A stretch of DNA of 64,000 nt from Zobellia uliginosa (GTDB taxonomy: Bacteria > Bacteroidota > Bacteroidia > Flavobacteriales > Flavobacteriaceae): NCBI RefSeq assembly GCF_900156625.1, contig NZ_FTOB01000003.1, positions 434,001 to 498,000 on the forward strand. The letters are read 5' to 3'. A program made the translations under genes and the position numbers. Of the stretch, positions 4,789 to 24,655 are shown in pieces (within the stretch, counting starts at the first letter, position 1; every line of letters begins with the position of its first letter). The notes under the pieces are model-generated. The model did not search any database and was not told the origin of the DNA. It saw only the letters and a program-made list of their open reading frames with translations.

Positions 4789-5620
4789 AATACTTAAATC
4801 AGGACTTTTTACTACGTTACAGGATATGGGCCGATACGGATTTTTGGACAAAGGGGTGCCCGTTGCGGGGTGTATGGACAGTTTTTCGGCGAAAAAAATA
4901 AATCAGCTTTTAGAGAACGATAGTGCTGTGGCCGTATTGGAAATAACCATGACCGGCCCAACCTTGCTTTTTGAGGAAGCTACCTATGTCGCTATCGGGG
5001 GCGCATTATTGAGTGCTACCTTGAACAATGAACCTGTGGCCAATTATGAGGTAATCAAGGTTTCTGGGGGAGATATCCTTTCCTTTGGAAAACTTGAAAA
5101 AGGATTTCGTTGTTATTTGGCTATAAAAGGCGGTTTCAAAACACCCCTGGTGTTGGGTAGTCGTTCTTTATTTTCTTCCGTAACCAAAAAGAACCATCTT
5201 GTAGACGGTGAAGAGTTGCCTTATGGGGCCTCCCCTGATTTTAAGCCAAAGATCAGTAAATTGAAAGTTGACTCCTTTTTGGATGAACAGGTGTTGACCG
5301 TTTCAAAAGGGCCGGAGTACGACAGCCTTTCCGATAAGCAGTTGGAGATGTTGTTTTATAAGGCATTCTCCATAGCGAACGAAAACAATAGAATGGCCTA
5401 TCAATTGGAGGAAAAGATTATAGGCATCAAGACTTCGATGATTACCTCGGCGACACTTCCCGGAACGGTGCAACTCACTCCTTCCGGTAAATTGATTATT
5501 TTGATGAAAGACGGGCAGACCACTGGTGGCTATCCGAGAGTTTTACAGCTTTCCGATAGGGCGATATCGGTTCTGGCCCAGAAAAAGTATGGAGATGAGG
5601 TGCGATTTCAATTGAATTAG
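4781..5620 (+). CDS. pxpC: 5-oxoprolinase subunit C (KipA/biotin-dependent carboxylase-like)
   Basis: Third subunit of 5-oxoprolinase, 279 residues, slightly shorter than many homologues (about 300-330). Signatures include the opening LKSGLFTTLQDMGRYGFLDKGVPVAG, split here as residues 5-12 and 13-30, the ALLSATLNNEPV strand and the C-terminal PGTVQLTPSGKLIILMKDGQTTGGYPR region. The ATG overlaps the pxpB stop by 8 bases, so the three subunits are made in step. Unlike some Bacteroidota loci, no NRAMP-like transporter follows; the next feature is the ilv leader. Confidence 0.94.
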   Translation: MLKILKSGLFTTLQDMGRYGFLDKGVPVAGCMDSFSAKKINQLLENDSAVAVLEITMTGPTLLFEEATYVAIGGALLSATLNNEPVANYEVIKVSGGDILSFGKLEKGFRCYLAIKGGFKTPLVLGSRSLFSSVTKKNHLVDGEELPYGASPDFKPKISKLKVDSFLDEQVLTVSKGPEYDSLSDKQLEMLFYKAFSIANENNRMAYQLEEKIIGIKTSMITSATLPGTVQLTPSGKLIILMKDGQTTGGYPRVLQLSDRAISVLAQKKYGDEVRFQLN

Positions 5621-5689
5621 TAAAAATAGGGGTGTATTTCTGCGGATTATTCATTGCCGTAAAACCTCATTTTGCGTAATATTGTTATG

Positions 5690-5746
5690 ATGAAAATAAG
5701 CACACATACTATCGTGGTTGTGAGAGTCATTCCAAAAGAGGAATGA
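5690..5746 (+). CDS. Probable Val/Ile-rich leader peptide of the ilv operon
   Basis: An 18-codon ORF (or 19 from the adjacent ATG at 5687) encodes MKISTHTIVVVRVIPKEE and stops at 5744-5746. Seven of its residues are Ile or Val, six of them packed in I-V-V-V-R-V-I at codons 8-14. This strongly resembles the E. coli ivbL and ilvG leader peptides (VVVVRVVVVV and LLRVISLVV). It lies between pxpC and ilvD and is followed 20 bases later by a strong terminator (5766-5804). The control codons overlap the left arm of a hairpin (5727-5733 with 5740-5746), as expected when ribosome stalling decides RNA folding. Too short for gene finders; function is inferred from composition, position and folding. Confidence 0.75.
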   Translation: MKISTHTIVVVRVIPKEE

Positions 5747-5804
5747 TGCAGATTTTCATTGTTTGAAAAGGCCTGTATCATGTAAAATTGATACAGGCCT
5801 TTTT
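5727..5804 (+). promoter_or_regulatory. Transcription attenuator: pause hairpin, antiterminator, terminator
   Basis: There are three mutually exclusive pairings. (1) TCATTCC 5727-5733 with GGAATGA 5740-5746, covering the last Val/Ile codons of the leader peptide. (2) TGATGCAG 5744-5751 with CTGTATCA 5773-5780, one G-U pair, acting as antiterminator. (3) The 15-bp terminator stem, 5766-5780 with 5790-5804 and a T run. Pairings 2 and 3 compete for the same bases. Expected behaviour: scarce Val/Ile stalls the ribosome over 5714-5731, frees 5744-5751 and lets transcription reach ilvD. With ample Val/Ile the ribosome reaches the stop codon, blocks 5744-5751 and the terminator forms. Confidence 0.7.
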
Positions 5805-5805
5805 A
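5766..5805 (+). terminator. Leader terminator upstream of ilvD
   Basis: Left arm 5766-5780 and right arm 5790-5804 are complementary over about 15 bp with a 9-base loop, G+C-rich in the middle (GGCCTGTATCA). They end in a run of five T. The hairpin lies 240 bases before ilvD, so it either ends pxpABC transcripts or attenuates ilv transcription, or both. Confidence 0.85.
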
Positions 5806-5987
5806 ATTTTAGTGGCCAGATGGGGTTTAACCCCGTGGTTATACGGTTGGTAAGGTTAATGGAAGACGAATTGAATATGATAAAAAATAATAGTTAAATG
5901 ACTGTACTTTAGTGTATTGTGTAATTTTTTTAACTATTGGATTTAGATAGGGAAGCGCAATGGAAAATACTGAAATACAGAAAACGA

Positions 5988-5995
5988 TACCTTTG
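5988..5995 (+). promoter_or_regulatory. Candidate second ilvD promoter (-7 element)
   Basis: TACCTTTG matches TAnnTTTG fully and lies 50 bases before the ilvD ATG. No TTG stands 17-23 bases upstream. If active, it would start transcripts downstream of the attenuator and bypass it, so it matters for the attenuation model. Confidence 0.3.
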
Positions 5996-6045: not shown

Positions 6046-7722
6046 ATGGAACTTAACAAGTATAGCAAAAACGTAACTCAAGACCCAACTCAACCGGCTG
6101 CTCAGGCAATGTTATATGCCATCGGTTTTAAAGATGAAGACTTCAATAAACCCTTGGTCGGCATTGCCAGTACGGGCTATGAGGGCAACCCTTGTAATAT
6201 GCACCTTAACGATTTGGCCAAGTTGGTCAAAGAAGGGGTCAATTCAAAAGAAACGGTCGGCCTTATCTTTAATACGATTGGAGTCAGTGATGGTATATCT
6301 ATGGGTACGCCAGGGATGCGTTTTTCCTTGCCGTCAAGAGATTTGATTGCCGATTCTATGGAAACGGTGGTTCAGGGGATGTCTTATGATGGATTGGTGA
6401 CCGTTGTTGGTTGTGATAAAAATATGCCAGGGGCGTTAATGGCGATGTTGCGGTTGAACCGTCCTGCTATTTTGGTCTACGGTGGAACCATTGCTTCAGG
6501 GTGCCATAATCATAAGAAACTGGACATTGTTTCGGCTTTTGAGGCATGGGGGGAGAAAGTTGCCGGAACCATGGAGGAGACCGAGTATAAATGTATTATC
6601 AAAAAATCCATTCCGGGCGCAGGTGCATGTGGTGGTATGTATACAGCCAACACTATGGCCTCGGCGATTGAAGCCCTAGGGATGTCCTTGCCTTATAACT
6701 CTTCAAACCCCGCGATAAGCGACGATAAGAAACAAGAGTGCATCGCTGCCGGTAAGCAAATGCGTGTATTGATCGAAAAGGATATCAAACCTTTGGATAT
6801 CGTTACGCGAAAATCTTTGGAAAACGCTATTCGATTGGTCACTATTATGGGGGGGTCTACGAATGCGGTACTGCACTTTTTGGCTATCGCAAGAGCAGCG
6901 GATATAGAATTTACTTTACAAGATTTTCAACATATAAGTGATACTACACCTTTTATCGCCGACTTAAAACCCAGTGGTAAATTTTTAATGGAAGATGTTC
7001 ACCGTGTAGGTGGTATACCTGCCGTATTGAAGTATTTATTGAAGAATGGTTTGTTGCATGGTGACTGTTTAACGGTTACTGGTAAAACCTTGGCGGAGAA
7101 CCTTGAAAATGTTCCGGATTTAGAGGAAGGACAAGAAGTTATTATGCCGCTTGATAAGCCGATCAAGGCAACGGGCCATTTGCGTATGCTTTATGGAAAC
7201 CTGGCCGAAAATGGTTCGGTGGCCAAGATTACGGGTAAAGAAGGCTTGTTGTTTAAAGGGACCGCTAAAGTGTTTGATAGTGAATATGCGGCCAACGATG
7301 GTATTCGTACCGGATTGGTGAAGAAAGGTGATGTAGTGGTCATACGTTACGAAGGACCTAAAGGAGGACCGGGAATGCCGGAAATGTTAAAGCCAACTGC
7401 AGCTATTATGGGTGCGGGTCTAGGTAAGGACGTAGCCCTGATTACCGATGGTCGCTTCTCAGGAGGGACGCACGGTTTTGTGGTAGGGCATATTTCCCCC
7501 GAAGCACAAGAAGGTGGAACCATAGCCTTGGTGCAAGATGGTGATATCATTACCATCGATGCCGAAACCAACTCGATAAATGTTGAAGTTTCCGATGAAG
7601 AATTGGCAAAACGCAAGGAATCTTGGGTAGCCCCTGAATTGAAGTTTAAAAAAGGAGTGTTGTACAAGTATGCCCGTTCGGTCTCATCGGCGGCGCAGGG
7701 TTGTGTAACGGATGAATTTTAA
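6046..7722 (+). CDS. ilvD: Dihydroxy-acid dehydratase
   Basis: The enzyme dehydrates 2,3-dihydroxy-isovalerate and 2,3-dihydroxy-3-methylvalerate to the keto acids that become valine/leucine and isoleucine. At 558 residues it is of normal length. The three Fe-S cluster cysteines are in place: C50 in GNPCNMH, C123 in VGCDKNMPG and C195 in [14 protein letters not shown]. The C-terminal [17 protein letters not shown] signature is also present. It is the first gene of the ilv run and sits behind the leader peptide and attenuator, with ilvB following after 82 bases. The placement of ilvD first, rather than after ilvGM as in enterics, is common in Flavobacteria as far as I know. Confidence 0.98.
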
Positions 7723-7804: not shown

Positions 7805-9538
7805 ATGGAAACAGTAAAAATAAAAACACAGGAAAACCCGAAGAAGGAAACTCTGAAGATCAGTGGGGCCGAAGCTATTATTCATTGTCTGCTGGCCGAA
7901 GGGGTCGATTTGCTTTATGGGTATCCTGGCGGGGCCATCATGCCGGTCTATGATGAGCTGTACAAGTTTCAGGACAAGCTTACCCATATTTTAACGCGAC
8001 ATGAACAGGGGGCGGCGCATGCGGCGCAGGGTTATGCCCGTGTTTCGGGTAAAGTGGGGGTGGCTATGGCTACTTCCGGACCGGGTGCGACCAACTTGGT
8101 GACAGGTTTGGCGGATGCCCAAATAGATTCTACACCCATGGTGTGTATTACAGGGCAGGTCACCCGTCATTTGCTGGGGTCCGATGCCTTTCAAGAAACT
8201 GATATCATCGGAATTTCTACTCCTGTGACCAAATGGAACTATCAGATTACCGAGGCTTCCGAAATTCCTGAAATCATGGCAAAGGCTTTCTATATTGCCA
8301 AATCGGGAAGACCAGGTCCGGTATTGGTGGATATCACTAAAAACGCCCAGATCGACGAGTTTGAATTTAGTTATGAAAAATGCACGGCGGTAAGAAGTTA
8401 CGATGCAGTGCCTAAACCAAAGGTTGAAACAATTGAGGCGGCGGCCGAATTGATCAATAATGCAAAGAGACCATTTATAGTTTGGGGTCAGGGCGTTATT
8501 TTGGGAAGGGCCGAAGAGGAGCTTAAGGCCTTGGTCGAGAAATCGGGTATTCCTGCAGCTTGGACGATTATGGGGGCTTCGGCCTTAGATAGTGAGCACC
8601 CTTTGAATGTGGGTATGGTAGGGATGCACGGAAACTACGGGCCTAATATGTTGACCAACGAGTGTGATGTGCTTATAGCAATAGGTATGCGTTTTGATGA
8701 TCGTGTTACGGGAAGTCTTGATACCTACGCCAAACAGGCTAAAGTCATTCACTTTGAAATAGATAAGGCGGAGATAAACAAGAATGTCCATGCCGATGTA
8801 GCGGTTTTGGGCAACTCTAAAGAGACTTTAGGGCTAATGCTTCCGTTGATCAAAGAGAATACACATGAAGCTTGGCATAACGAGTTCAAGGAAAAATATA
8901 AAATCGAATTTGATCAGATAATCAAGAACGATATTCACCCGACCAAAGAAGGTTTGACCATGGGTGAGGTAATCGAGGAGATAAACATCGCATCTGAGCA
9001 AAATGCGGTTATCGTTACCGATGTAGGTCAGCATCAAATGATAGGCTGTCGGTATGCGAAGTTCAAAAAGAGTAAAAGTAACATTACCTCCGGGGGATTG
9101 GGTACTATGGGATTTGCCCTTCCTGCGGCCATAGGGGCCAAAATGGGTGCCATGGACCGTGAAGTGGTGGCCATTATCGGAGACGGGGGCTACCAAATGA
9201 CCATTCAAGAACTTGGGGTGATTTTCCAGCATAACGTTCCTGTTAAGATTGTGGTATTGAACAACGATCATTTGGGTATGGTACGTCAGTGGCAAGAGCT
9301 TTTCTTTGATAAGAGATATGCTTCTACTGTAATGGTAAACCCTGATTTTGTTAAGATTGCCGAAGGTTACAGCATCGAGGCGAAAAGGGTGGGCAAAAGG
9401 GAAGACCTTAAAACGGCCATTCAAGAAATGATCGCTTCTGATAAGCCTTATTTCCTAGAGGTTAAGGTGGAAAAGGAAGACAACGTGTTTCCGATGATTC
9501 CTTCCGGTGCCTCTGTTTCCGAAATACGATTGAAATAA
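7805..9538 (+). CDS. ilvB: Acetolactate synthase large (catalytic) subunit
   Basis: This thiamine-diphosphate enzyme joins two pyruvates to acetolactate, or pyruvate and 2-oxobutyrate to acetohydroxybutyrate, the first shared step of Val/Leu/Ile synthesis. Its 577 residues carry the catalytic Glu67 in RHEQGAAHAAQGYAR, the GDGG motif at 459-462 and NND some 26 residues later, which together bind Mg-ThDP. The FAD-binding middle domain is intact (GMHGNYGPNML, GMRFDDRVTG). The charged N-terminal 20 residues before ISGAEAI are not conserved in general. The small subunit ilvN does not follow directly: a methyltransferase gene and a decayed gene intervene. Confidence 0.98.
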   Translation: METVKIKTQENPKKETLKISGAEAIIHCLLAEGVDLLYGYPGGAIMPVYDELYKFQDKLTHILTRHEQGAAHAAQGYARVSGKVGVAMATSGPGATNLVTGLADAQIDSTPMVCITGQVTRHLLGSDAFQETDIIGISTPVTKWNYQITEASEIPEIMAKAFYIAKSGRPGPVLVDITKNAQIDEFEFSYEKCTAVRSYDAVPKPKVETIEAAAELINNAKRPFIVWGQGVILGRAEEELKALVEKSGIPAAWTIMGASALDSEHPLNVGMVGMHGNYGPNMLTNECDVLIAIGMRFDDRVTGSLDTYAKQAKVIHFEIDKAEINKNVHADVAVLGNSKETLGLMLPLIKENTHEAWHNEFKEKYKIEFDQIIKNDIHPTKEGLTMGEVIEEINIASEQNAVIVTDVGQHQMIGCRYAKFKKSKSNITSGGLGTMGFALPAAIGAKMGAMDREVVAIIGDGGYQMTIQELGVIFQHNVPVKIVVLNNDHLGMVRQWQELFFDKRYASTVMVNPDFVKIAEGYSIEAKRVGKREDLKTAIQEMIASDKPYFLEVKVEKEDNVFPMIPSGASVSEIRLK

Positions 9539-9566: not shown

Positions 9567-10148
9567 ATGCTCGACTCCCAAATAATGGATCAACCAAAAA
9601 TCTATCAAGAGATTCAGCGAAAATCGAAGGAAGTTGGCTTTACCATGCCTTCCGATCTATATGTCGGTAGCTTGTTGAAAACATTGATGTTGTCAAAGCC
9701 CAATGGAAGATTTTTGGAAATGGGCACGGGCATTGGCTTGAGCCTATCATGGATGATAGATGGTATGGGGCCTGGTAGTCGTTTGGTTTCCGTAGACAGT
9801 GATAGTGATCTCATAGAGATCGTATCGGGCTATTTTGGGGCCGACAAACGGGTGGAGTTGGTTTGTCAAGATGGATCGGAGTGGATCCGTTCGTATGAAG
9901 GGGCGCATTTCGATTTGATTTTTGCCGATGCTTGGCCTGGAAAATACAGTGAAATAGATGAAATGCTTCGTCTTTTGACTATAGGAGGTTTTTATATTGT
10001 GGACGATATGACGGCCCAACCCAATTGGCCTGAAGGCCATGAAGATAACGTAGGGCGTTTGGTGGGGTATTTGGAAGGTCGGGATGATCTTGTTTTGACC
10101 AAGTTGAACTGGTCTACAGGCCTGATCGTTGCGGTAAAAACCAAATAG
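9567..10148 (+). CDS. Class I SAM-dependent O-methyltransferase-like protein
   Basis: A 193-residue protein with a Rossmann-type methyltransferase fold: motif I FLEMGTGIGLS near residues 50-60, then SVDSDSD (ribose-binding acidic turn), FDLIFADAWPGKY, and GGFYIVDDMT as the later strand. It resembles small CmcI/catechol-O-methyltransferase-type enzymes. The substrate is unknown. It starts 28 bases after ilvB and is on the same strand, so it is co-transcribed with the ilv genes, separating the catalytic from the regulatory subunit of acetolactate synthase. A second possible start is Met-7 at 9585. No obvious step in branched-chain synthesis needs a methyltransferase. Confidence 0.85.
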   Translation: MLDSQIMDQPKIYQEIQRKSKEVGFTMPSDLYVGSLLKTLMLSKPNGRFLEMGTGIGLSLSWMIDGMGPGSRLVSVDSDSDLIEIVSGYFGADKRVELVCQDGSEWIRSYEGAHFDLIFADAWPGKYSEIDEMLRLLTIGGFYIVDDMTAQPNWPEGHEDNVGRLVGYLEGRDDLVLTKLNWSTGLIVAVKTK

Positions 10149-10421: not shown

Positions 10422-10477
10422 TCGAGCGCAGTTGAGGGCGAATAAAATTGAATAATTTGGTTGTCGACTGCGCTCGA
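10422..10477. repeat. 11-bp inverted repeat, possible dispersed palindromic element
   Basis: TCGAGCGCAGT at 10422-10432 is exactly complementary to ACTGCGCTCGA at 10467-10477, with a 34-base spacer. A short inner hairpin CCCTC/GAGGG lies at its left side. Sequences of the form CGACTGCGCTCGA are common between genes in Flavobacteria, so this may be one copy of a repeated family; copy number cannot be judged from one window. The right arm ends 22 bases before the ilvN ATG and may affect its translation. Confidence 0.55.
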
Positions 10478-10499
10478 TCAGATACTATTAAAATACGCA

Positions 10500-11030
10500 A
10501 TGGAAAAACAATGGTTTACCATATCGGTATATTCCGAGAACAATGTAGGTTTGCTGAATAGAATTTCAGGGATTTTCTTAAAGAGACACATTAATATAGA
10601 AAGTTTAAATGTTTCTAAGTCAGAGATAGATGGCGTATCTAAATTTACCATTGTTGTGCATACCACCGAGCGATGGACGCACAATATCGTAGGTCAGATA
10701 GAAAAACAGATCGAGGTGATAAAGGCCTTTTATCATACCGACGACGAAACGATCTATCAAGAATCGGCCCTGTTTAAGATTGCATCGGACCTCTTGTTCG
10801 ATGAAAGACAGATCCAAAATATCATAAAAGAGAACAACTCGCAGATCGTTACCGTGGCGCGTGACTTTTTTGTGATCGCAAAATCGGGACGTAGAAACGA
10901 AATCGATGAAATGTACGATCAGTTAAAGCCTTTCGGTATTATGCAATTTGTACGTTCGGGCCGTATTTCGGTATCTAAGGAGGAAATGCGGATTACCGCT
11001 TTGCTCAATGAATTTTATCAAGAAAAATAA
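10500..11030 (+). CDS. ilvN: Acetolactate synthase small (regulatory) subunit
   Basis: The regulatory partner of IlvB gives feedback inhibition by valine. It has 176 residues, with the N-terminal ACT domain FTISVYSENNVGLLNRISGIFLKRHINIESL and the conserved C-terminal half (FVIAKSGRRNEIDEMYDQLKPFGIMQFVRSGRISV). The frame extends upstream to a TTG at 10461, but that extension runs through an inverted repeat and lacks homology. The ATG at 10500, immediately before EKQWFTISVYSEN, is the sensible start. It is separated from ilvB by an intact methyltransferase and a decayed one. Confidence 0.95.
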   Translation: MEKQWFTISVYSENNVGLLNRISGIFLKRHINIESLNVSKSEIDGVSKFTIVVHTTERWTHNIVGQIEKQIEVIKAFYHTDDETIYQESALFKIASDLLFDERQIQNIIKENNSQIVTVARDFFVIAKSGRRNEIDEMYDQLKPFGIMQFVRSGRISVSKEEMRITALLNEFYQEK

Positions 11031-11125: not shown

Positions 11126-12601
11126 ATGGCAAATTACTTTAATACACTTTCTTTAAGAGATCAATTGGCCCAGTTGGGAAAATGTAGGTTTATGGAAGCT
11201 TCGGAATTCTCCGAAGGTGTATCGGCTTTAAAAGGAAAGAAAATAGTTATCGTTGGTTGTGGGGCCCAAGGTCTCAACCAAGGTCTCAACATGCGTGATT
11301 CGGGTCTTGATATTTCGTACGCGCTAAGGGATGCCGCAATTAAAGAAAAAAGACAATCGTTTTTGAACGCTACGGAAAACGGTTTTACCGTTGGTGCCTA
11401 TGCGGATTTGATTCCTAGTGCCGATATGGTAATCAACCTTACTCCTGACAAACAGCATACTGCCGTTGTTGGTGCGGTAATGCCATTGATGAAAAAGGGA
11501 GCGACTTTATCGTATTCACATGGTTTCAACATTGTGGAAGAAGGTACTCAAGTACGCGAAGACCTTACTGTGATTATGGTAGCGCCCAAGAGTCCAGGTT
11601 CTGAGGTGCGTGAAGAATACAAAAGAGGTTTTGGTGTACCTACCTTGATCGCGGTTCACCCGGAGAACGATCCAGAAGGAAAGGGCTTGGAGCAGGCCAA
11701 GGCATACGCCGCTGCTACTGGAGGCCATAGGGCAGGTGTTTTGGAATCTTCCTTTGTTGCCGAGGTAAAGTCCGATTTAATGGGTGAGCAAACCATTCTT
11801 TGTGGATTGTTGCAAACAGGTAGTATTCTTTGTTTCGATAAAATGATCGAAAAGGGAATCGATTCCGGTTATGCTTCCAAATTGATCCAATACGGATGGG
11901 AGACCATTACCGAAGGAATGAAATACGGTGGTATCACCAATATGATGGATCGTTTGTCGAATCCTGCCAAAATCAAGGCTTTTGAACTTTCTGAAGAATT
12001 GAAAGACATCATGCGTCCGCTTTTCCAAAAGCATATGGATGATATTATGACCGGCCATTTCTCAAAAACCATGATGGAAGACTGGGCCAATGACGATAAA
12101 AATCTTTTGACTTGGCGTGCGGAAACCGGTGAAACGGCTTTTGAAAAAACTCCTGCAGGTGACGATAAAATATCTGAGCAAGAATTTTACGACAATGGGG
12201 TGTTAATGATCGCTATGGTAAGGGCCGGTGTTGAATTGGCTTATGAAAGCATGACGGAATCGGGTATTATCGGTGAGTCGGCTTACTATGAGTCATTGCA
12301 CGAAACTCCGCTAATTGCAAACACCATTGCAAGAAAGAAATTGTTCGAGATGAATCGTGTTATTTCCGATACCGCTGAGTACGGTTGTTACCTGTTCGAT
12401 CATGCCTGTAAGCCGCTATTGGCCGATTTTATGAAAAAAATCGATACCGACGTTATCGGTAAGGCTTATGGAGAAGGTAAAGACAACGGGGTTGACAATG
12501 CTAAACTCATAGCCGTGAACAAAGTACTTCGTGAGCATCCGGTCGAAATCGTAGGCGCAAGACTTCGCGCATCTATGACGGCCATGAAGCCGATTGTATA
12601 A
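11126..12601 (+). CDS. ilvC: Ketol-acid reductoisomerase, class II (long form)
   Basis: The enzyme converts acetolactate and acetohydroxybutyrate to the dihydroxy acids by a Mg-dependent alkyl shift and NADPH reduction. The length of 491 residues equals the long enterobacterial/plant form, with a duplicated C-terminal knotted domain. The Rossmann motif [20 protein letters not shown] is near residue 40, and metal-binding acidic patches such as [13 protein letters not shown] and the later repeat are present. It is 95 bases after ilvN and followed by a terminator-like hairpin before ilvA. Confidence 0.98.
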
Positions 12602-12678: not shown

Positions 12679-13929
12679 ATGACGTATTTTCCTAGTATAC
12701 CGGATATCAAAAAGGCGGCTGCGACCATCGCCCAGGTGGCTTCGGAAACCCCTTTAATGCAAAGCATACGGCTGTCAAAGGCTTATGGTGCCAATGTTCT
12801 TCTTAAGCGAGAAGACCTGCATCGGGTGCGTTCCTATAAAATTCGAGGGGCATTCAATAAGATCAGTTCGCTTTCGGAAGAGGAAAGGGTAAAGGGAATT
12901 GTGTGCGCCAGTGCGGGAAACCATGCCCAAGGCGTAGCTTTTGCTTGTAATCATCTAAAAATTCAAGGTACGGTATATATGCCTTCGGTAACACCGAAGC
13001 AAAAAATAGAGCAGACCAAAATGTTCGGCGGTGAATGGGTCACCGTTGTGCTTGAAGGCGATACTTTTGACGACTCGTCTAAAAGTGCCAGGGCATTTTG
13101 TGAAAGCAGCGATAAGACCTATATCCATCCTTTTGACGACCCTAAGGTCATTGAAGGGCAGGCTACGGTAGGCTTGGAGCTCTTGGAACAGTTTAAGGAG
13201 CCTATAGATTACATTTTTGTGGCCGTGGGCGGAGGTGGACTCGCTTCGGGTTTAATAGGCGTCTTTAAAGAACTGTCGCCTAGCACCAAAATCATAGGTG
13301 TTGAGCCCGAAGGGGCGCCATCTATGAAGACTTCCATGGAAAATAACGTGAATACCGAGCTTTTAAAAATCGATAAGTTTATTGATGGTGCTGCGGTACA
13401 AAAAGTGGGGGATTTGACCTTTTCCATCTGTAAGGAAGGACTTTATGATATGGTAACCGTGCCGGAAGGTAAAGTGTGCCAGACCATTCTTGACCTGTAC
13501 AATAGGGATGCCATTGTAGTCGAACCTGCCGGGGCATTGACCATAGCGGCTTTAGATGGCTTTGCTTCCGAAATAAGGGACAAGAGCGTTGTTTGCATTC
13601 TTAGTGGAAGCAATAACGATATCACCCGAACGGCGGAGATTAAGGAAAGAGCCCTTTTATACGGCCGCCTTAAACATTATTTTATTGTAAGGTTTCCACA
13701 AAGACCTGGTGCCTTAAAGGAGTTCGTAGCAGAGATTTTAGGCCCTGATGATGATATTACCCATTTTGAATATTCAAAAAAATCGAGTCGTGAAAACGCG
13801 CCGGCCATTGTTGGTATCGAGCTCAAAAGTCCTGAAGACCTAGAACCACTGGTACAGCGAATGAAGGCAAACAACTTTTATGGAGACTACCTGAATGACA
13901 AACCCGACTTGTTTCAGTATCTCGTGTAA
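12679..13929 (+). CDS. ilvA: Threonine dehydratase (biosynthetic type)
   Basis: A pyridoxal-phosphate enzyme deaminating threonine to 2-oxobutyrate, the first step of isoleucine synthesis. It has 416 residues. PLP lysine K54 is in RVRSYKIRGAF, the phosphate loop GGGGLASG is present, and a C-terminal ACT-like regulatory domain begins near residue 333 (YFIVRFPQRPGALKEFV). One regulatory domain places it with the shorter form seen in Bacillus and Corynebacterium rather than the 514-residue E. coli enzyme. The ATG lies just after the ilvC hairpin, so its expression depends on read-through or on a local promoter I cannot identify. Confidence 0.96.
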   Translation: MTYFPSIPDIKKAAATIAQVASETPLMQSIRLSKAYGANVLLKREDLHRVRSYKIRGAFNKISSLSEEERVKGIVCASAGNHAQGVAFACNHLKIQGTVYMPSVTPKQKIEQTKMFGGEWVTVVLEGDTFDDSSKSARAFCESSDKTYIHPFDDPKVIEGQATVGLELLEQFKEPIDYIFVAVGGGGLASGLIGVFKELSPSTKIIGVEPEGAPSMKTSMENNVNTELLKIDKFIDGAAVQKVGDLTFSICKEGLYDMVTVPEGKVCQTILDLYNRDAIVVEPAGALTIAALDGFASEIRDKSVVCILSGSNNDITRTAEIKERALLYGRLKHYFIVRFPQRPGALKEFVAEILGPDDDITHFEYSKKSSRENAPAIVGIELKSPEDLEPLVQRMKANNFYGDYLNDKPDLFQYLV

Positions 13930-23137: not shown

Positions 23138-24655
23138 CTAAATGATATTGAGCATCTTTTCGGTCGCTTTGATCGCCGATACGGTTTGATCGGAATCCAG
23201 TCCCCGGGTAATCAATTCCTTATCGCCATTTTGCCAAGTGATTATAGTTTCACATAGGGCGTCTGAATTACTCCCCGGTGGAATCCTTACGGCATAGTCC
23301 GTTAGTTTCGGAAACTCCATGTTCTTTGAGGTGTAGAGTTTGCGAAGGGCATTCATAAATGCATCGTATTGTCCATCCCCTTGGGCATGGGCCTCTAAGA
23401 GCTCGCCATTGATTTCTAAGGAAACCGTAGTCGATGGACGTAGCCCCTTTGAATGGGTGAGTACGTAGGATCTTATGAATACTTTCTGTTGATGGTCGTC
23501 ACCCTCGCCTAAAACATCGGAAATGATATAGGGCAGATCATCTTTGGTTACCCTCTCTTTTTTATCACCCAGTTCAATGATACGTTGGGTAACTTTTTTC
23601 AGCTCTTCATCGTTAAGAGTGAGTCCGAGTTCCTGTAAATTCTTCTGTATGTTGGCTTTTCCCGAGGTTTTGCCTAAGGCATATTTTCTTTTACGGCCAA
23701 AACGTTCGGGCAATAGGTCGTTAAAATACAAGTTCTTTTTACTATCCCCATCCGCATGTATTCCAGCGGTTTGTGTAAATACATTATCCCCTACAATAGG
23801 TTTGTTCGAGGGAATTCCGACCCCTGTAAAGGCCGAAACCAATTTACTGACTTTGTAGAGCGAAGACTCGTTGACCTGAATCTGAATGTTCGGTAAAAAA
23901 TCGTTGATTACGGCAATGGCACTTGCCATTGGGGCATTACCGGCCCGTTCTCCCATACCGTTAACCGTTAGATGAAGACCATGGCAACCGGCTTTTACGG
24001 CTTCCATTACATTGGCGACCCCAAGGTCGTAATCGTTGTGCCCGTGGAAATCAAAATGGGCATCGGGGTAACGTGTTACGATTTCTGAAATATAGGCGTA
24101 GGTTTCCGAATAGGTGAGTACGCCCAAGGTATCGGGAAGCAAGACCCGTTTAATGGGTTGCTGTGTCAAAAAATCGAGGTATTGAAAAACGTACTCCTTT
24201 GAAGAGCGCATACCGTTACTCCAATCTTCTAAATAAACATTGGTGACAATACCGTTTTTTGAAGCCTGTTCTATAGATTTTGCAATATCGGAAAAATGTT
24301 CTTCAGGCGTTTTTTTAAGTTGATAGGTAAGGTGGTTCAACGAACCTTTGGTCAAGAGATTCTGTACTTTGGCCCCGGCCGTTTTCATCCAATCTATCGA
24401 TACACCGCCATCAACGAAGGTGAGCACCTCCACTTTGTCGATACAATTCTTGTCAGAAGCCCATTGTGCGATTTGTTTGACGGCTTCGAGCTCCCCATCG
24501 GAAACCCGTGCCGAGGCAACTTCGATACGGTCAACTTTTAATTCTTCTAAAAGTAGTTTGGCCAAGGTCAGTTTCTCGGAAACGGAAAAGGATACACCAG
24601 AGGTTTGTTCGCCGTCTCGCAGCGTGGTATCCATAATTTCCAGTTTTCTTTTCAT
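23138..24655 (-). CDS. leuA: 2-isopropylmalate synthase family protein (LeuA/citramalate-type)
   Basis: A 505-residue DRE-TIM metallolyase. Metal and substrate motifs: MDTTLRDGEQTSG near residue 8, FDFHGHNDYDLGVANVMEAV and NGMGERAGNAP; the C-terminal third is the LeuA allosteric domain (LRPSTTVSLEINGELLEAHAQG). It condenses acetyl-CoA with 2-oxoisovalerate if a true LeuA. The core resembles a distinct Bacteroidota branch, and HGHNDYDLG differs from the usual H-x-HNDLG, so a citramalate or related substrate is possible. Position between leuD and leuB favours the leucine role. The stop is 2 bases before the 46-residue ORF. Confidence 0.85.
   Translation of the reverse strand: MKRKLEIMDTTLRDGEQTSGVSFSVSEKLTLAKLLLEELKVDRIEVASARVSDGELEAVKQIAQWASDKNCIDKVEVLTFVDGGVSIDWMKTAGAKVQNLLTKGSLNHLTYQLKKTPEEHFSDIAKSIEQASKNGIVTNVYLEDWSNGMRSSKEYVFQYLDFLTQQPIKRVLLPDTLGVLTYSETYAYISEIVTRYPDAHFDFHGHNDYDLGVANVMEAVKAGCHGLHLTVNGMGERAGNAPMASAIAVINDFLPNIQIQVNESSLYKVSKLVSAFTGVGIPSNKPIVGDNVFTQTAGIHADGDSKKNLYFNDLLPERFGRKRKYALGKTSGKANIQKNLQELGLTLNDEELKKVTQRIIELGDKKERVTKDDLPYIISDVLGEGDDHQQKVFIRSYVLTHSKGLRPSTTVSLEINGELLEAHAQGDGQYDAFMNALRKLYTSKNMEFPKLTDYAVRIPPGSNSDALCETIITWQNGDKELITRGLDSDQTVSAIKATEKMLNII

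Follow-up and report, generated by a model that had tools for sequence, protein, structure and literature searches.

In Escherichia coli, the ilvBN and ilvGMEDA operons are preceded by attenuators, ivbL and ilvL respectively, with leaders rich in codons for branched-chain amino acids. Leader-peptide attenuation requires that translation be tightly coupled to transcription. In 2010, such systems were listed from Proteobacteria and Actinobacteria only, ermC apart, and Firmicutes were then added (available text of PMC2965389). For Bacteroidetes, excerpts of two papers mention short ORFs or leader genes in general terms only (PMC7366714, PMC4833913), and the mRNAs of Bacteroidota are described as being without Shine-Dalgarno sequences (PMC6847099). 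A preliminary description of the present locus held that attenuation was little described in flavobacteria; it had, however, already been mentioned for Flavobacterium psychrophilum, where in 2021 leader-peptide attenuation was inferred before amino acid operons and conserved 5' elements were named at pheA and hisG (PMC9723704, in part). The term "ilv" is absent from the main text of that paper. Elsewhere, the trpL attenuator transcript of Sinorhizobium meliloti trpLE(G) begins with the leader ATG (PMC7298713, excerpt), and Salmonella mgtCBR carries tandem leader ORFs and attenuators on one transcript (PMC3641672, excerpt).

The locus considered here lies near the start of the window, by which we mean the whole 64-kb stretch of DNA, from a marine flavobacterium, that was analysed. 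It very probably contains a ribosome-mediated transcription attenuator in front of ilvD-ilvB-ilvH-ilvC-ilvA. We favour attenuation because of the leader ORF, the terminator, the mutually exclusive and conserved pairings, covariation in the terminator and the 1:2 hairpin, the codon spacing, and His, Trp, and Phe leaders elsewhere in the genus. The features are as follows.

Between the end of pxpC (5620) and the start of ilvD (6046), plus strand: leader region
5677-5684, plus strand: -7 box of predicted promoter P1, TAATATTG, matching TAnnTTTG at 5/6 positions; predicted +1 at about 5689-5690
5687-5746, plus strand: longer form of the leader ORF, MMKISTHTIVVVRVIPKEE and stop
5690-5746, plus strand: leader ORF of 18 codons from the second ATG, MKISTHTIVVVRVIPKEE and stop; alternative ATG at 5687
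5711-5731, plus strand: control codons Ile-Val-Val-Val-Arg-Val-Ile, with conserved spacing to segment 2
5726-5733, plus strand: segment 1, GTCATTCC, partner of 5740-5747 in the covarying 1:2 hairpin
5743-5751, plus strand: segment 2, ATGATGCAG, overlapping the stop codon; partner of segment 3 in the antiterminator
5752-5759, plus strand: linker, ATTTTCAT, complementary to the leader start, ATGAAAAT (5690-5697)
5763-5806, plus strand: intrinsic terminator, 18-pair stem and 8-nt loop, then T-rich sequence
5773-5781, plus strand: segment 3, CTGTATCAT, shared by antiterminator and terminator
5790-5800, plus strand: segment 4, within the terminator
5937-5947, plus strand: upstream element of candidate promoter P2, TTGGATTTAGA
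5988-5995, plus strand: -7-like box of candidate promoter P2, TACCTTTG, a perfect TAnnTTTG, 3' of the terminator
6046-7722, plus strand: ilvD, dihydroxy-acid dehydratase, first structural gene (TIGR00110 and NF002068 above cut-off)
7805-9538, plus strand: ilvB (NCBIfam naming)
9567-10148, plus strand: small methyltransferase-like ORF in the gap between ilvB and ilvH (weak NCBIfam match only)
10461-11030, plus strand: ilvH (NCBIfam naming)
11126-12601, plus strand: ilvC (NCBIfam naming)
12679-13929, plus strand: ilvA (NCBIfam naming)

Gene order and strand suggest that the five ilv genes share one transcript. The weak match of the small ORF at 9567-10148 was to a polyamine aminopropyltransferase (21.2 bits, NCBIfam). 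A LeuA-like gene occupies 23147-24646 on the minus strand (TIGR00973, 278 bits, below cut-off); a better LeuA match is found elsewhere in the same genome.

The Val/Ile-rich ORF that the preliminary description had placed at 5687 is present with its Ile-Val-Val-Val-Arg-Val-Ile codons, ends with UGA at 5744-5746, and contains no Leu codon. Its start is more likely the second ATG, at 5690, because relatives align there and because the -7 box would set +1 at about 5689-5690. The same description likened the peptide to that of E. coli ivbL; the likeness lies in a run of Val codons and does not amount to evidence of homology.

Conservation was assessed in 196 regions upstream of IlvD relatives: 80 of 588 confirmed relatives (mostly Flavobacteriaceae, with some records labelled otherwise), nine genomes of the genus, and 107 others (27 loci and 80 stretches) drawn from 195 family genomes with a match. 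Zobellia russellii (L080), with an IlvD 95% identical, probably belongs to the same genus as the window. Removal of duplicates left 187 regions, of which 184 reached at least 500 nt (L150, of doubtful orientation, included). Terminators were called with a local-fold finder; a strict-hairpin finder had missed many. A leader followed by a terminator was called before ilvD in 73 of the 184 loci (26/77 titled loci and 47/107 others). The reverse complement gave a call in 10/184, and three dinucleotide-shuffled sets in 18, 14, and 19 of 184. The 73 calls include some that arose by chance; a recurring terminator motif is present in 62 loci. The other 111 loci gave no call, and some of these may have ilvD in a later operon position or a leader overlooked by the caller; leaders were overlooked in L067, L077, and L095.

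Within the genus, the arrangement precedes ilvD in 9/9 genomes. The caller found eight (L081, which is the window's own leader, L084-L089, and L080 = L083, identical over the last 400 compared bases), and the ninth, L082, was seen by eye to have the window's peptide and a visible terminator. A covariance model, R1, recovers the leader in all nine. As a specific detector R1 was rejected: scores of 30-48 bits also occur at unrelated places and on the opposite strand of true sites. Because of this lack of specificity, its tallies were left unused and 22 loci were inspected instead.

A slightly looser set of 90 leader calls in 73 loci was filtered for a recurring stem motif in a terminator below -10 kcal/mol, which kept 74 leaders in 62 loci, and 73 after one overlapping ORF of L044 was removed by hand; this selection favours recurring classes. 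Class B, with the terminator core CTGTATC...GATACAG as in the window, accounts for 34 of the 73. Non-B leaders belong mostly to class A (CCTTCC...GGAAGG) or class C (CCCTT...AAGGG, mainly from Aquimarina). Across the class-B leaders, Ile and Val make up 41% of codons in frame 0 and 9% and 6% in the other frames, and stops number zero in frame 0 against 52 and 41 in the others. The leader is a short ORF rich in codons for products of the pathway, in a single frame, as in known attenuators.

Leaders matched to other amino acids were found in front of the corresponding operons in the nine genus genomes: an ORF with HHH before hisG (9/9; L246-L254), one with WWW before trpE (9/9; L255-L263), and one with FFF and FYFYFFF before pheA (9/9; L279-L287). 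The trpE leader has a perfect -7 box 5 nt before its ATG in 9/9. Terminators were called at 8/9 his, 7/9 phe, and 0/9 trp loci; on inspection, hairpins were visible in L249 (his) and L283 (phe), both missed by the caller, and a hairpin with a short T run was visible in L257 and L258 (trp). The hisG gene lies about 1.6 kb past the end of the window in the same genome. At the nine leuA loci, no Leu-rich ORF with a terminator was found within 600 nt (two distant ones occur in L267), and no Leu leader was seen by eye near leuA in L268. None was found for homoserine dehydrogenase in a 1.5-kb flank, which may stop short of the gene start.

That the ORF arose by chance and happens to precede an ordinary terminator is an explanation that we consider next to negligible. 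Short ORFs are common, and the looser caller does fire in 14-19 of 184 shuffled loci. However, a strict caller (at least six Ile/Val codons and a terminator at or below -15 kcal/mol) fires in only 2/20 dinucleotide-shuffled 64-kb windows; in the real window it fires at one place on the plus strand, on both ATGs of the leader ORF, and nowhere on the minus strand. Chance also fits poorly with an ORF conserved throughout the genus, with frame-specific Ile and Val codons in class B, and with the His, Trp, and Phe leaders before matching operons.

Between the leader and the first structural gene stands an intrinsic terminator, as expected of an attenuator. The preliminary description had proposed a 15-bp terminator with a T run, sharing 5773-5780 with the antiterminator; the terminator is there, followed by T-rich sequence, but the stem has 18 pairs and an 8-nt loop. 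The antiterminator it proposed, TGATGCAG at 5744-5751 with CTGTATCA at 5773-5780, was found exactly, with one more A-U pair (5743:5781). Folding of the 129-nt leader gave -50.9 kcal/mol compared with a shuffled mean of -23.3 (z = -8.2; 0/200 shuffles as good).

Pairing statistics were taken from an alignment of the 34 class-B leaders (A1). The terminator helix is paired in 99.5% of 374 cells, with 3 pairs (21 cells) changed on both sides, and the 1:2 hairpin in 95.2% of 272 cells, with 4 pairs (29 cells) changed on both sides. The number of pairs changed on both sides was equalled by 56/500 shuffles for the terminator and 62/500 for the 1:2 hairpin, whereas the count of such cells and the covariation score of either helix were reached by 0/500, a test in which kinship among sequences can beat shuffles without any structure. 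The antiterminator is paired in 98.7% of 238 cells over the 34 leaders, compared with 17-46% in versions slid along the alignment. Within class B it has no double-sided change and a score not above shuffles; its changes are one-sided and G-U-compatible, and both outcomes follow from an invariant segment 3 (CTGTATC in 34/34 leaders, themselves selected by CTGT[AG]TC), which leaves the shuffle control uninformative for this helix. The covarying stems foreseen in relatives were therefore borne out by compensatory changes in the terminator and the 1:2 hairpin, but the antiterminator offers one-sided changes only. With the ORF and the antiterminator pairing both conserved, the attenuator reading is supported; as in other attenuators, the antiterminator is mutually exclusive with the terminator whose strand it shares.

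Comparison between classes also bears on segment 2. Median scores of the helix between linker and segment 3 were 16.5 for class B with its own segment 3 and 11 with that of A or C; 15 for class C with its own, 12 with A, and 12.5 with B; and 12.5 for class A with its own, 11 with B, and 12 with C, a weak difference. A different segment 3 thus tends to go with a matching segment 2, apparently clearly for B and C and weakly for A. Compared with 200 shuffled linkers, a leader's own linker forms the better helix with segment 3 at p ≤ 0.05 in 32/73 leaders and at p ≤ 0.01 in 16/73.

A riboswitch that binds a metabolite, or a T-box, would likewise present a structured RNA and a terminator before a biosynthetic operon, with no need for a translated leader. 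We regard this alternative as very improbable: no Rfam family reaches its gathering score within the window, and the best sub-threshold match is to a leader family (Thr_leader, at 31.8 bits where the threshold is 55). What is conserved, moreover, is the codons of one frame, while the pairing strands change sequence between classes.

The spacing of the control codons was examined, together with folding, in 32 of the 34 class-B leaders (two without the segment 2 core were left out). An Ile or Val codon stands six codons above the segment 2 core in 32/32 leaders and five above in 24/32, and Ile and Val fill only 3-4% of positions one to four codons above; the run of such codons breaks off sharply some 15 nt 5' of the antiterminator strand. 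At this boundary, the front of a stalled ribosome should halt before reaching segment 2. In six leaders (L069, L076, L093, L117, L162, and L174) the stop codon comes 8-12 nt before segment 2, and the last Ile, Val, or Leu codon is still 14-18 nt before it. Folding snapshots were computed with the transcript ending four bases past segment 3 and ribosome footprints of 10, 13, and 16 nt. When the last Ile/Val codon occupied the A site, the 2:3 pairing had a mean probability of 0.98; the mean was 0.10 with the ribosome at the stop (0.19, 0.10, and 0.01 for the three footprints, which agree in outline) and 0.28 without a ribosome, a state in which 10/32 leaders exceeded 0.5. In these in silico snapshots of 32 of the 34 leaders, a stalled ribosome frees segment 2 and a terminating ribosome covers it. 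For the window's leader the probability was 0.89-1.00 over the control codons, 0.82-0.95 at earlier codons, 0.00 at the stop, and 0.81 without a ribosome; with the antiterminator so favoured, untranslated transcripts would therefore terminate poorly.

The linker is also complementary to the leader start. Pairing of ATGAAAA with the linker was found in 8/8 genus loci tested, and in L001, and may limit initiation to the first ribosome. As a general feature this helix was rejected, being absent from most non-genus loci tested.

The P1 box ends 5 nt before the ATG at 5690. Of the 26 single class-B leaders, eight of which are from the genus, 24 have a TAnnTTTG box, matching at 5/6 or better, whose end is 3-5 nt from the ATG. 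In 20/25 single non-B leaders a box lies 8-10 nt before the ATG. Many transcription start sites of F. johnsoniae lie 4-5 nt after the -7 box (PMC6847099, in part), and positions -12 to -5 are given for the box of F. psychrophilum (PMC9723704, in part). Based on the spacing of the P1 box and these known distances, the leader AUG would be at +1 or one base from it. The window's leader mRNA is accordingly likely to be leaderless or nearly so; leaderless mRNAs are in the minority in F. psychrophilum (5.5%; PMC9723704, in part).

Behind the terminator, the preliminary description had suggested a second promoter at 5988 that could bypass the switch. The perfect TAnnTTTG box is there and recurs in relatives; its bypass role is putative. 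A 6/6 box lies 48-58 nt before ilvD in all 26 single class-B loci, and at 41-64 nt in 3/36 other loci with a kept leader and 36/122 loci without one. Anywhere between terminator and ilvD, it occurs in 32/62 loci compared with 15.2 in shuffles. A TTGRATTTA-like sequence usually stands about 50 nt 5' of the box; TGTTAAAA is often found between the two in single class-B loci. The box together with TTGRATTTA or TGTTAAA occurs in 34/122 loci without a kept leader, 26 of which have no CTGTATC in the 330 nt upstream. Since the P2 pattern recurs in loci without a kept leader, it does not require the class-B attenuator. In the genus, the combined pattern marks the ilvD site in 9/9 genomes and only 7 other places in all nine together; the reversed control gave one match. 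From these motifs we lean towards P2 being an active promoter. The region is possibly a promoter with putative regulator sites, 3' of the attenuator, and may carry much of ilv transcription.

It could be argued from the same data that the operon is expressed mainly from P2 under a DNA-binding regulator, with the leader and terminator marking the end of the pxpABC unit or a minor regulatory tail. The presence of the box in 26/26 single class-B loci, the P2 pattern in the 34 loci without a kept leader, and the end of pxpC at 5620 on the same strand would all suit such an account. We nevertheless consider it unlikely: a plain 3' terminator leaves unexplained the Ile/Val ORF, the covarying 1:2 hairpin, the spacing of codons to segment 2, and the P1 box at the ATG, and P2 and an attenuator are compatible with each other.

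Two leaders in series were found in 11 of the 62 loci (L036, L041, L070, L117, L123, L137, L143, L165, L007, L023, and L034). Each is an Ile/Val leader with a terminator of its own, mostly 5' of ilvD; L218, L224, and L231 are further examples. At 8/11 serial loci the second leader is of class B and the first is not, with a gap of 3-25 nt after the first terminator. At none of these loci does a -7 box stand 3-5 nt 5' of the second leader's ATG, so the second leader should require read-through of the first one. The layout differs in L023, where 101 nt separate the leaders and a 6/6 box lies 6 nt 5' of the second ATG.

Beyond the family, leaders were also seen among the highest-scoring R1 matches from other families in the same class. 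A leader precedes ilvD in L219 (family f22), lies between ilvD and ilvB in L220, L221, and L223 (f13), and lies about 1 kb or more 5' of ilvD in L229 (f22) and L231 (f16, two leaders). L224 (f24) has two leaders and no ilv gene matched nearby. The R1 matches beside ilvB in L222 and L230 gave no leader by ORF criteria.

The proposed order of events is as follows: RNA polymerase would start at about 5689-5690, placing the leader AUG at the 5' end or one base from it, and a ribosome would then follow the polymerase. The switch would sense charged tRNA-Val and tRNA-Ile. When both are plentiful, the ribosome would reach the UGA at 5744-5746 and cover segment 2, and the 3:4 terminator would form. 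When either is short, the ribosome would stall over 5711-5731, covering segment 1 and leaving segment 2 free. The 2:3 pairing would then form before segment 4 is made, and transcription would run on into ilvD. Transcripts begun at the P2 box, 5988-5995, could bypass the switch. Start sites, translation of the leader, stalling, termination in vivo, and use of P2 are steps that we infer.

More tentatively, the observations might be joined into a single reading, which we judge possible rather than probable. Attenuators would be family-wide, with a pioneer ribosome loading on a leaderless AUG and initiation independent of Shine-Dalgarno sequences. In the genus, the linker, made just after segment 2, would pair with the start codon, and later ribosomes might be shut out. 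The conserved promoter behind the terminator would supply an unattenuated basal transcript, and two leaders in series, in relatives, would act as an AND gate.

The conserved ilv, his, trp, and phe leaders offer a direct means of asking if, and in what manner, the first ribosome is coupled to RNA polymerase in Bacteroidota. They further suggest that peptides of roughly 15-24 residues have been overlooked, and they predict that in an abundant marine group major operons are controlled by amino acids.

This kind of attenuator is known and has been glimpsed in the family; the ilv case, the spacing rule, the near-leaderless start, the bypass box, and the serial forms were not met in the literature searched. 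Within the attenuation literature on Bacteroidota and flavobacteria, subscription journals lying mostly outside, no title or abstract opening names an ilv leader. The attenuators of F. psychrophilum come from the same family as the window, and leaders at pheA and hisG were found here too; the available text of that account (PMC9723704) presents neither sequences nor a model of the pairings, and does not describe codon spacing or leaders in series. E. coli ivbL and ilvL serve the same pathway and share with the present locus a short leader rich in branched-chain codons, alternative pairings, and a terminator. The present locus differs in having no Leu codon in its leader, ilvD as the first gene, a predicted near-leaderless start, and a promoter-like box behind the terminator, and we claim no sequence homology between the leaders. 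S. meliloti trpLE(G) resembles the prediction made here in that its 5' end is the leader ATG, making it leaderless, but it belongs to an Alphaproteobacterium, responds to Trp, and encodes a peptide with reported roles in trans (PMC7298713, excerpt). Salmonella mgtCBR (PMC3641672, excerpt) parallels the serial leaders proposed in the window's relatives; it senses ATP and proline, whereas both leaders of the flavobacterial pairs are rich in Ile and Val.
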